A model generated the notes under the pieces. The model was not told the origin of the DNA, did no database searches, and worked only from the letters and a program-made list of their open reading frames with translations. Position numbers and translations under genes: made by a program. DNA of 51,023 bases, from positions 1 through 51,023 of the forward strand of contig CADCJO010000023.1 in NCBI GenBank assembly GCA_902801765.1, read 5' to 3'. This stretch comes from an uncultured Eubacteriales bacterium (GTDB taxonomy: Bacteria > Bacillota > Clostridia > Christensenellales > Aristaeellaceae). The first letter of the stretch is position 1, and each line of letters opens with the position of its first letter. Shown in pieces: positions 16,797 through 51,023 of this stretch.

Positions 16797-17078
16797 AGGG
16801 GGTTTCCTCCTTTATAGGTTCCTCATTCATGGTGGGTACGCAATGCCCCCATGAGAGGTCGGATGCTGTGTCACACTCTCTCGTTTCTCCGTTCGTTCTT
16901 GAGAACGAAGCCAGGCGGAGAGAGGGCGATGAACGTTTGGGGATGTGCCTTAGATTCGGGATGGGATTTCCCTGATAAGGGCCGCAGCTGTAGCAGCGCT
17001 ACCGCAAGGCCCGCAGAAGGGAAAGACCGCCCGAAGATGAGGCACAGCGCCGAACGGGCATCGCACGAACGACGCCAA
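16797..17078 (-). promoter_or_regulatory. Structured 282-base spacer at the S10/spc boundary
   Basis: No gene. Besides the family 1 element at 16944-17046 it holds a hairpin with arms TTCGTTCT/AACGAA enclosed by CTCTC..TCTCCG / CGGAGAGAG (about 16876-16924) and a smaller CATGG..CCATG hairpin close to rplN. No convincing promoter was found. The place corresponds to the S10/spc operon junction of E. coli, so a regulatory, processing or attenuation role for rplN and followers is plausible but unproven. Confidence 0.5.
16944..17046 (+). repeat. Family 1 nested-hairpin element, copy A
   Basis: Five stems nest exactly: TGTGCCT/AGGCACA (16944-16950, 17040-17046); TTCGGG/CCCGAA (16955-16960, 17030-17035); TTTCCCT/AGGGAAA (16967-16973, 17018-17024); GGGCC/GGCCC (16979-16983, 17008-17012); GTAGC/GCTAC (16990-16994, 16998-17002). 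It shares the GTAGC-AGC-GCTAC hairpin and the AAAGAC..CCC.AAGAT block with copies B and C. In the orientation of copies B and C it is antisense to the ribosomal transcript. Confidence 0.65.
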
Positions 17079-17339
17079 TTACTTGGCTTTTTCGATGATT
17101 TCCACCAGCCGCCAATGCTTATCCTTGGACAGGGGACGGCATTCCATGATCTTCACGGTGTCGCCGATGCCGCAGGCGTTTTCTTCATCGTGCACCTTGA
17201 TTTTGCTGGTGCGGGTGATGAACTTGCCATACAGGGGATGACGCACGCGGGTGGACAGGCTGACCACGCAGGTCTTGTCCATCTTATCGCTGACGACCAC
17301 GCCAACGCGGGTCTTGCGGATGCCTCTTACTTCAGACAT
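17079..17339 (-). CDS. rpsQ: 30S ribosomal protein uS17
   Basis: 16S rRNA-binding OB-fold protein, 86 aa. [38 protein letters not shown] and the C-terminal [20 protein letters not shown] are diagnostic. Start ATG 17339 is 8 bases after AAGGAG; a GTG at 17357 would include that site in the coding sequence. Last gene of the S10 block. Confidence 0.97.
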
Positions 17340-17367
17340 GGTATTGACTCCTTTCACGGCTTATCGG

Positions 17368-22634: not shown

Positions 22635-22695
22635 ACTTAGTGAATGGGACGATTCTTCCCCCGCGAATTGCTCATGGTGGAGCTGGTGAGAGGTT

Positions 22696-22870
22696 ATACT
22701 AAACTCAAGCTAAAAATGTATCAGATTTGGGATGGATTTTACGCCGTGGCTAAGCTGAATGGAGGGAGGCGTAGCAGCGCTACGTTGACCGGCTACGTTG
22801 ACCGGAATGAAGCAACGCCATGGCGTAAAAGACACCCAAAGATGATATAGTTTTAAATTGAGTTTAGTAT
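22696..22870 (+). repeat. Family 1 nested-hairpin element, copy B, with 13-bp terminal inverted repeats
   Basis: Terminal inverted repeat ATACTAAACTCAA / TTGAGTTTAGTAT (22696-22708, 22858-22870) encloses TTTGGG/CCCAAA, then TTTTACGCC/GGCGTAAAA extended by TGGC/GCCA, then the CGTAGC/GCTACG hairpin. A 13-base unit (GCTACGTTGACCG) is duplicated just after the hairpin. The right end abuts the stop codon of the metallophosphoesterase gene. Size, inverted ends and lack of coding potential resemble a MITE or REP-like element. A 66-codon frame running through it is judged spurious. Confidence 0.7.
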
Positions 22871-23613
22871 TAAATCACCTTCATCGGCGTCCATTCCAGA
22901 TAATCGCCGGAAACGAGACTGTACCGGATGCCATTTTTCACGCCCAGGATGCTGTCATGGAAGCGGGACTGGCCGTGGCAGTGGGCGTAGATCACCTGCT
23001 GCGCGCCGTATTCCTCGGCCATGCGGGTAAACGCGCTGTCCTTTTCCAGGATGTTGGTGGGCGGATAATGCAGAAACATGATCAACTTTTTGTAGCCGTC
23101 CCGCTTCGCCGCTTCAAAGGACACCCGCAGCCGTTCCGCTTCCCGCTCCACCAGCTTTGCCGCGCGGGCGGCTTCCTCCTCGTCCCAGCCCACCACACGC
23201 CTTTTCCGGTCAAGGTAAAAGGGCCCCTCGAACGTGAAGCCCTTCGTGCCCACCAGCGCGAAGTCCTGATAGGCGGCGTAATTGTTTTGCAGGAAGAACA
23301 GCTTGCCCGCGAACCGCTCGTTCAGCGCGGCTGTCTTTTTCGCGTCCCAAAACATATCGTGGTTGCCCCGCAGCAGAATCTTCCGCCCCGGCAGGGAGAG
23401 AATATATTCAAAGTCTTTTTCGCACTCCGCCATGTTCCGGCCCCAGCTGTGGTCGCCCGCCAGCAGCAGCGTGTCCTCCGGGCCGATCATGCGGCGGCAG
23501 TTCTTCAGGAACCGTTCCTCATGGTTTTTCCACACCGACGCGGTCAGCTGGCCGTGAGCTTTCAATTCGGATTGAAAGTGCAAATGAAGATCGCCGATCG
23601 CAAATAAACTCAA
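22870..23613 (-). CDS. Calcineurin-like metallophosphoesterase
   Basis: Predicted metal-dependent phosphohydrolase, 247 aa. The motifs of the fold are present in order: GDLHLH (residues 7-12), LAGDHSWG, LLRGNHDMFW, MFLHYPP and AHCHGQSRFH. The substrate is unknown; related Firmicutes proteins are annotated only as metallophosphoesterases. Start chosen at TTG 23613, 9 bases after AGGAGG, which yields the typical N-terminus before IGDLHLH; a longer frame begins at 23652 without a better site. A single gene flanked by repeats on both sides. Confidence 0.88.
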   Translation of the reverse strand: MSLFAIGDLHLHFQSELKAHGQLTASVWKNHEERFLKNCRRMIGPEDTLLLAGDHSWGRNMAECEKDFEYILSLPGRKILLRGNHDMFWDAKKTAALNERFAGKLFFLQNNYAAYQDFALVGTKGFTFEGPFYLDRKRRVVGWDEEEAARAAKLVEREAERLRVSFEAAKRDGYKKLIMFLHYPPTNILEKDSAFTRMAEEYGAQQVIYAHCHGQSRFHDSILGVKNGIRYSLVSGDYLEWTPMKVI

Positions 23614-23660
23614 GGGAACGTTCCTCCTATATATTTTCTGGGGGAATATCAAAAAAATGT

Positions 23661-24032
23661 ATCAGTCATGGTATGAAGGATGATAATAAAAACGAGGCAG
23701 GGGGCTTCTTCATCCCCCTGTACCCCTGAACCAGGAGATTTCTCACGGGGCTGCCGCCCGGCCTACGCTGACAATGATCCACTGGATCATTGTCCGGGCG
23801 CTTCGGCCCTCCTGGACCTCAACAGCGGATATGGCTTGAATTGGACAATTAACTTGGTTTCCGCTATTGCATGGAAGAATGTGGAAGCCTGGCGTGGCGC
23901 CGTGGTGCTTCTGGCCCGGCGGCGAAGCCACCAACCCGGATGCTTTGCATCCGGGGAAAGCCAGGGAATCATCCGTAGGGGAAAGTTTACTTTCCCCCTC
24001 GGATGTTCCCGGGCTTTCTTGGGCCAGAAGCC
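23661..24032 (+). repeat. Family 2 composite hairpin-array repeat, copy b (fullest copy)
   Basis: Order of parts: head CAGTCATGGTATGAAGGATG; GGGGGC..CCCCC hairpin with the flank TACCCCTGAACC; a CCAGGAG/CTCCTGG stem (23730-23736, 23808-23814) whose loop holds an inserted arm with CAATGATCC/GGATCATTG (23771-23791); a 120-base conserved body; GGCGGCTTC-type hairpin; CCGGATGC/GCATCCGG; GGGGAAAGT/ACTTTCCCC (about 23979-23998). Copy a (1-215) has the same body with a simple hairpin instead of the inserted arm. No coding potential. Confidence 0.75.
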
Positions 24033-37279: not shown

Positions 37280-37457
37280 AGTTTATGTGGTTTTCTGTAT
37301 GGAGATGGGGATTTTTGTTTTTTGCCCTTGACAAACAGTTCTCGCTGTTTCAGCCAATATTAAGAAACAGCATGGAACGCCATCATGACCAAGATAGGAT
37401 GGGAGGGAAGCCATGCTGGCCAATAGCAAGAATATTGGTTCCAATTCCTGCAGATAA

Positions 37458-37506
37458 ACAAGCCCTCTGCCTCGTCTTTGTTTTCACCCTTCACAACATG
37501 ACTGTT
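37458..37506 (-). repeat. Family 2 repeat, head segment (copy c)
   Basis: On the minus strand it begins AACAGTCATGTTGTGAAGG and matches 50929-50978 with one single-base gap and one substitution over about 50 bases. It is followed (lower coordinates) by unrelated sequence, so only the head is present here. Confidence 0.75.
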
Positions 37507-37554
37507 AATACTGTTCTCTCTCTAAATCATTGAATAAGAATACCGACCAAAGGC

Positions 37555-37620
37555 ATCCGGGGCTGCCACCCGGCCTTCGCTGGAAACAGTCCACTGGACT
37601 GTTTCCCAGGCGCTGCGATC
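37555..37620 (+). repeat. Family 2 repeat, solitary inserted arm
   Basis: Matches the arm inserted in copy b (23741-23807): GGGGCTGCC.CCCGGCCT.CGCTG is shared, and the following stem keeps the ACT loop but has changed arms, GAAACAGTCC/GGACTGTTTC (37583-37605) instead of CAATGATCC/GGATCATTG. The arm therefore occurs on its own, outside the composite repeat. Confidence 0.65.
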
Positions 37621-37706
37621 CCCCCAAGGGGGAAATCTTTGGGGTTACCCGTTGATTCAACGACTTAGAAGATGAACAGTATTATACTATTTCTCGTCTA
37701 AACCAT

Positions 37707-37778
37707 TGAATCTTCGGGCGTCTTTTCCGTCCTGGCTGTGCTTCATTCCGGTCAACGTAGCGCTGCTACGCCTCCCTT
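37707..37778 (-). repeat. Family 1 element, copy C (partial)
   Basis: On the minus strand it contains GGAGGCGTAGCAGCGCTACG, then TTGACCGGAATGAAGCA, then AAAAGACGCCCGAAGAT, all shared with copy B (22766-22843). The left outer arms found in copies A and B are not recognisable; a terminator hairpin stands there instead. Confidence 0.65.
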
Positions 37779-37781
37779 CAT

Positions 37782-50878: not shown

Positions 50879-50928
50879 CCGCTTCGCCTCCTCTCACGGC
50901 ATTAATGCTTTAATACTATTCGCGTTCT

Positions 50929-51023
50929 AACAGTCATGTTGTGAAGGGTGAAAAACAAAGACGAGGCAGGGGGCTTGTTCAGCCCCCTGTACCCCTGAAC
51001 CAGGAGATGAAATCTCCTGGACC
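50929..51023 (+). repeat. Family 2 repeat, copy d (cut by window end)
   Basis: Begins AACAGTCATGTTGTGAAGG, continues with the GGGGGC..GCCCCC hairpin and TACCCCTGAACC flank, and ends in a CCAGGAGAT/ATCTCCTGG hairpin at the edge. Same order as copy b, and the simple hairpin of copy a. It starts 51 bases upstream of the twin-SGNH gene. Confidence 0.75.

Follow-up and report, generated by a model that had tools for sequence, protein, structure and literature searches.

A widespread family of probably mobile hairpin repeats with one strand proposed to be selected for folding and a putative role at bacterial gene boundaries

We propose, with moderate confidence, that the nested-hairpin repeats found in the window (the whole stretch of 51,023 nucleotides analyzed here) belong to an old mobile family in which one strand is selected to fold and whose long-lived copies are kept for a putative role at gene boundaries. 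The window copies would be members of a single, very widespread family of roughly 110–175-nt elements. The strand reading GTAGCAGCGCTAC would be selected to fold into one long hairpin whose apical stem is constant, whose internal loops are tandem G⋅A, and whose arms change fast and still pair.

Three copies in the window

The core 13-mer (GTAGC-AGC-GCTAC) has three exact matches in the window, and in a shuffle control 2 of 100 shuffles reached three core matches with two mismatches allowed. Copy A lies on the plus strand in the spacer between the genes for ribosomal proteins S17 and L14, with its core hairpin at 16990–17002 (pattern match). The earlier note had placed it at 16944–17046; the position stands, and the extent is longer, the whole nested hairpin reaching from about 16926 to 17064 when delimited by hand. 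A covariance model built from Desulfosarcina-type copies only matches it at 16931–17060 (44.7 bits). Copy A is without TACT ends (see below). The rpsQ gene (S17; 17079–17357, minus strand, Pfam) has its stop codon (TTA on the plus strand at 17079–17081) 14 nt past copy A, and the next gene after the copy, in the same direction, is rplN (L14; 16428–16796, minus strand, Pfam).

Copy B is a full element on the plus strand (22697–22869) bounded by the terminal inverted repeats TACTAAACTCAAGC.../...GAGTTTAGTA and by a target-site duplication, TTA, at 22694–22696 on the left and 22870–22872 on the right. The right TTA is also the stop codon of a calcineurin-like phosphoesterase gene (22870–23652, minus strand). 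The core hairpin of copy B (22771–22783, plus strand, pattern match) is directly followed by a 13-bp tandem duplication, CTACGTTGACCGG, and the Desulfosarcina-only model matches the copy with 41.6 bits. Copy C, on the minus strand, consists of the right half and the core only (37685–37781; core hairpin at 37757–37769 by pattern match), its left (5′) half being missing. The motifs and stems that the earlier note had quoted for copies A and B are found where it placed them, and the double changes between their enclosing stems are real; double changes are also borne out in the larger, controlled sets described below.

Directly adjoining copy C, at 37509–37681, is an element of another type, which has TACTG... 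ends (TACTGTTCTCTCTCTAAATC / GAACAGTA) and an interior of its own, one portion of which shares 75% identity with 23746–23812. Other repeat families occupy 1–185, 23660–23973, 37453–37507 and 50928–51023 and are common to both contig ends and internal spacers, so that the contig ends in repeats. Positions 1–165 and 23809–23973 form inverted arms with 86% identity.

Distribution across genomes

Further copies are present both in the same genome and in related ones. The 2.40-Mb genome of the window contains 51 exact matches to the core and none to the reversed pattern, and the core occurs in 21 of 29 same-genus genomes, compared with one for the reversed control (counted by eye). It was also detected in 50 of 300 sampled genomes of the family (16 of 50 genera). 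Three or more core matches were found in 21 family genomes and three or more control matches, at most seven, in 14 (by eye). Low core counts per genome prove little. Ten or more matches occur in seven genomes, namely the window's genome (G000; 51), G056 (216), G107 (29), G094 (15), G276 (14), G162 (11) and G141 (10), and no control reaches 10.

A 21-base extended core was found in at least 115 stretches, when ∼0.5 would be expected in the whole collection by our estimate. The hosts include Clostridia, Desulfosarcina, Geobacter and relatives, Nitrospira, Myxococcales, Bradymonadales, Verrucomicrobia, Gemmatimonadota and others. Nine genomes reached through these loci have 11 to 83 exact cores each, the maximum being that of Acanthopleuribacter. 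Most loci were found via the core, and this sampling favors copies that keep it. Among 63 loci chosen for holding the core, the Desulfosarcina-only covariance model matches 59, three of the remaining four being from Acanthopleuribacter; moreover, 9 of 75 model matches lack the exact 13-mer. Taken together, the 59 matched loci and the matches without the 13-mer argue for homology that extends beyond the core.

Element ends and mobility

With all 51 copies of the window's genome lined up, complete elements measure ∼159 bp. Their ends are inverted repeats that start with TACT and fall into several types (TACTAAACTCAAGC, TACTATTTCTCGTC, TACTGTTTGAATTC and TACTAAATCCCGTC). A script detected both end patterns in 19 of the 51 copies, the other 32 being without one pattern, and all 19 are flanked by equal TNA triplets (TTA, TAA, TCA or TGA). 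In other family genomes 23 of 40 loci are without one end pattern; among the 17 copies with both, the triplets are equal in 12 and unequal in five, one of which is probably a chance match on the left. By eye, no clear target-site duplication was seen outside Clostridia.

The combination of terminal inverted repeats with 3-bp TNA duplications indicates that copies in the window's genome spread as non-autonomous transposons; these are the two features by which miniature elements of the MITE kind are recognized. A DDE-type transposase may have moved them in trans. The palindrome-dependent mobility that the earlier note had offered as an alternative is weakly supported, the copies of this genome resembling ordinary elements with terminal repeats and target duplications.

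Three copies (L027, L033 and L058, from G000 and G056) have an additional hairpin-forming insert (CGCCGAACGCA...) in their right half; the two from G000 retain both ends and the TTA duplication. Another copy (L009, G000:C6:74838) is a hybrid whose left and right halves come from two subfamilies, with TTA on both sides, and is either a recombination product or an assembly chimera.

Many of the copies L011–L050 and of the G056 loci have deletions or are half copies with break points at the core edges. That so many copies in these two metagenome assemblies break there could mean that the halves are the biological product of a cut-and-join reaction on the element, which we regard as improbable. 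These points coincide with the ends of several contigs and, in one scaffold, with Ns, and in the complete D. alkanivorans genome all 19 exact cores lie inside full-length model matches, although the model would not readily find half copies without the core. The half copies are possibly a short-read artefact, and since several contigs end at their break points we do not rely on them.

Search for a mobilizer and for known classes

REP sequences with their RAYT (Y1) transposases are, like the present elements, multicopy palindromes between genes; the difference is that a Y1 transposase match was obtained in only 6 of 20 genomes, leaving 14 without one, including G000, G056, G107, G162 and G302. 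Reverse transcriptases, which a retroelement would point to, were found in 4 of 16 genomes and in none of G000, G056, G162, G302 and G304. A TnpB over the cut-off, as for a TnpB/omega RNA system, was present in 2 of 18 genomes (G115 and G164), both without core matches, and three weak matches below the cut-off came from other genomes. RAYT, reverse transcriptase and TnpB thus have no consistent association with the element; the element-rich G056, which has none of the three, is 86% complete.

An IS5-like transposase (P0001) is full length only in the window's genome among the 29 same-genus genomes. Partial matches occur in six genomes, as an identical 22-residue fragment in G284 and with 28–35% identity in the others, and P0001 is probably not a genus-wide mobilizer. 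At L051 (G000:C49:266–1288) there is an IS5-like transposase gene without stops, and just upstream of it TACCATTTCTCGACT, which resembles one element end type. No longer element with the same ends was found among the end matches listed in these fragmented genomes, which were those of G000 and G094 and, for G056, the first 100 of 280.

Integron attC boxes (RYYYAAC/GTTRRRY) were found on neither strand in the first and last 20 nt of any of 37 copies. At the gathering score, Rfam 15 gave no match in the window, and for 20 element loci it returned only a tRNA; in permissive mode six loci gave nine matches below the gathering score. The earlier note knew no named RNA or REP class with this pattern. 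This holds for Rfam 15, although the palindrome had been noted in 2009 in a Geobacter family that was given no name (PMC2700814).

Covariation of the fold

The fold was examined in 37 Desulfosarcina-type copies, which align almost gap-free. With a 50-pair structure, 94.4% of the cells are paired and double changes affect 30 of the 50 pairs. Doubly changed cells number 168, compared with 47.6 ± 5.8 after shuffling, and the covariation score is 0.332, compared with 0.148 ± 0.007 for shuffled alignments and at most 0.087 for slid partners, the scored folds having been predicted from largely the same sequences. Sixteen of the 50 structure pairs exceed the 99.9th percentile of non-structure pairs, and when 10,440 column pairs are ranked by covariation, 17 of the top 40 fall on the fold. 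The apical stem is conserved, as are the tandem G⋅A loops beside a majority U⋅G wobble; on the left AAGGCCGCA is conserved too, and on the right GAGAAC. Covariation therefore lies far above the shuffled null against which the earlier note had proposed to measure it, and far above the slid controls. This covariation supports its suggestion of selection for the fold, which can be narrowed to one strand.

Which strand folds

Stem wobbles were counted in 71 representatives of 210 copies, with arms aligned by a strand-symmetric score. On the core strand G⋅T outnumbers A⋅C by 241 to 114 (p about 1e-11), and the same strand is predicted to be the stabler one in 66 of the 71. A second count, made on a structure that favors G⋅U, gave 258 G⋅T and 35 A⋅C. 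In the wobble columns of the 37 Desulfosarcina-type copies, G⋅U is found in 36 of 37 at one position and U⋅G in 32, 30 and 28 of 37 at others. The G⋅T excess and the greater stability of the core strand suggest that selection keeps one strand folded, as RNA or as single-stranded DNA. We lean modestly towards RNA, since several G⋅U wobbles are fixed or are the majority state in their columns.

Pairing could instead be kept by mutation, if quasi-palindrome correction (strand switching) copied a change in one arm into the other. Eight pairs of copies that share a similar right flank bear on this. Two of them, between Desulfosarcina species, have 13 double changes against 3 and 2 single ones, which speaks both for selection on the fold and for such correction, whereas in several other pairs single changes are as many as or more than double ones. 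Summed over the eight pairs, 41 cells are doubly changed, 35 singly changed and 95 unpaired; most of the unpaired cells come from pairs poorly described by the fixed structure. A correction mechanism should treat the two strands alike, in contrast with both wobble counts (241 vs. 114 and 258 vs. 35), and the tandem G⋅A loops and majority wobbles have been preserved rather than corrected. We therefore find this account hard to credit, and selection on one folded strand remains the preferred reading.

Position at gene boundaries

The neighbors of 143 copies from mixed sources were scored as left and right gene, S for the strand of the core and A for antisense. Orientation was taken from a home-made ORF/hexamer caller rather than from annotation, and five copies inside called genes were left out. 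The contexts are AA in 65 copies, SA in 50, SS in 20 and AS in 8. The right gene is usually antisense, so that in the commonest context the folded strand is the template strand of the adjoining gene.

The complete D. alkanivorans genome has at least 122 model matches (150 candidates scored), and 42 of its copies were placed relative to genes with the same caller (AA 29, SS 7, SA 6, AS 0). The right end of the element lies between −10 and +6 nt from the gene end of the antisense neighbor in 34 of 35 cases. If copies were placed uniformly in the free space available, 4.9 such cases would be expected, and none of 200,000 simulations gave more than 13. The left end abuts a gene in 3 of the 42 copies. 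Pfam domains run to the last or next-to-last residue of the neighboring proteins (SecA and thiolase in D. alkanivorans, FabH and TrmU in D. widdelii, an FAD oxidase in Pelotalea), which suggests that the stops of these neighbors are natural; two of 20 scanned D. alkanivorans neighbors had no Pfam match. In the window's genome the stop codon coincides exactly with the duplication in 5 of 34 copies, which would be expected if copies inserted recently sit more loosely than those that have survived for long.

An element is found behind secA in D. alkanivorans (L385), Geobacter AOG1 (L102) and Geomobilimonas (L126), the gene being identified by Pfam in the first two and by its C-terminal sequence in the third. 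Such elements in distant hosts reflect either shared ancestry or repeated settlement. No consistent promoter, terminator or flank motif was seen in the places examined.

A position flush against stop codons would also suit a hairpin acting at the 3′ end of the upstream gene's mRNA, on the minus strand, as a terminator, stabilizer or processing site, like the transcripts of ERIC and NEMIS. The minus strand still folds stably, some elements lie within operons (between rpsQ and rplN in the case of copy A, and at dapAB-dapL in Geobacter, PMC2700814), and stem-loops in general are in excess on the 3′ side of genes (PMC1590033), a report in whose accessible part the flushness and polarity described here were not found. 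The better fold and the wobbles are nevertheless on the other strand, the minus strand has no intrinsic terminator (a GC-rich stem followed by a T-run) at or near copies A and B, and 7 of the 42 placed copies have both neighbors on the strand of the core. An mRNA 3′-end role thus appears unlikely, and we continue with a role of the folded core strand.

Orientation relative to replication

In D. alkanivorans the sign of the GC skew switches at about 1.0 and 4.7 Mb, and 75 of the 89 copies used share one orientation to replication; for comparison, 162 of 278 sampled genes are on the leading strand. The split applied (1.0–4.66 Mb) is also the best-fitting one, and the GC skew of 20 regions agrees with it except for one region at 5.14 Mb. 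The majority orientation is kept by all seven SS, all six SA and 24 of 29 AA copies. Replication, and not gene direction alone, thus appears to set the orientation. Agreement is weaker in D. widdelii, where 43 of 60 copies share one orientation with the split taken from GC skew and 45 of 60 with a fitted split.

The folded strand is on the leading-strand template. It is hairpins on the opposite, lagging-strand template that are said to be more prone to loss, and on this ground we prefer survivorship as the source of the bias: copies whose stabler strand is on the lagging-strand template would be deleted more often.

Orientation bias is also in line with the reading in which the folded strand acts as single-stranded DNA and a recombinase or relaxase-like enzyme recognizes the hairpin, with an attC-like geometry. 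In gene cassettes attC stands at the gene end, and it is the folded template strand near stop codons that is at work there; the present element resembles attC in both respects, its right end being at a gene end and its folded strand usually the template of the abutting gene. Against this, attC boxes are absent near the ends of all 37 copies on both strands, the neighbors that were looked at are ordinary chromosomal genes, no consistent association with RAYT, reverse transcriptase or TnpB was found, the folded strand is on the leading-strand template and not on the exposed lagging one, and the conserved wobbles fit RNA better. We hold this reading to be possible and doubtful, and prefer selection on a folded strand combined with survivorship. 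The attC-like motif OTH-22-1 also occurs in many phyla (PMC8632094) and is set beside our element by description only.

Copy A through time

An element is present in the S17/L14 spacer of the window's genome and of G094 and G069, of the same genus, and absent from 9 of the 12 loci read, including those of G030 and G115 of that genus. Copy A is an old, vertically kept copy. The three orthologs have a predicted fold of 51 pairs, of which 27 never change and 14 are changed on both sides, a count that has no null and concerns a fold predicted from the same sequences. Pairing is kept in all three species at 40 of the 51 pairs, and most of the 11 broken pairs belong to the G069 outer stem. In each of the three orthologs the core strand is the stabler one. 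A role for the host, played by the folded strand at gene boundaries, may be why long-lived copies such as copy A have been kept.

Discussion

In its lifestyle the element is a small palindromic mobile sequence, a known kind. The clearest precedent found is the unnamed repeat family reported in 2009 from Geobacter species and Desulfotalea, which has the same central palindrome (GRCGTAGCGCTGCTACGCC, holding the core on the other strand), is likewise intergenic and multicopy, and has a copy between the co-transcribed dapAB and dapL in two species (PMC2700814). In contrast with the present work, no structure test, strand assignment, mobility, boundary or replication rule was found in the accessible part of that report. 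In G. bemidjiensis palindromic multicopy families have been described, with multicopy sequences in 12% of intergenic regions (PMC2996986). ERIC/RU-1, YPAL/RU-2, NEMIS/Correia and RUP are similar in being 100–200 bp with long stem-loops, in having target duplications in most of those tabulated and in affecting mRNA in some cases, but each is tied to one or a few related bacterial groups (PMC2229807), whereas the present element has one fold across several phyla, compensatory change and a strand preference. No later treatment of the family was found in a search outside which most subscription papers lay. What sets the element apart is the breadth, the strand-specific structural selection and the boundary rule, of which no earlier description was found.

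Small palindromic repeats are usually treated as the debris of one lineage. Here one fold is common to Clostridia, Desulfosarcina, Geobacter, Nitrospira and Myxococcales, and compensatory change is seen at single orthologous loci. As a tentative and rather speculative extension, the family may represent a pan-bacterial class of mobile element in which the folded single strand is functional and which inserts at, or is moved up flush to, gene boundaries with a polarity that depends on replication, the route requiring neither RAYT nor reverse transcriptase, TnpB or integron integrase. If the shared fold, its compensatory changes, the strand preference and the boundary position in D. alkanivorans hold up, the family would be a testable example of how a mobile element can become a boundary structure, and would provide natural material for asking whether RNA, single-stranded DNA or replication shapes such elements.
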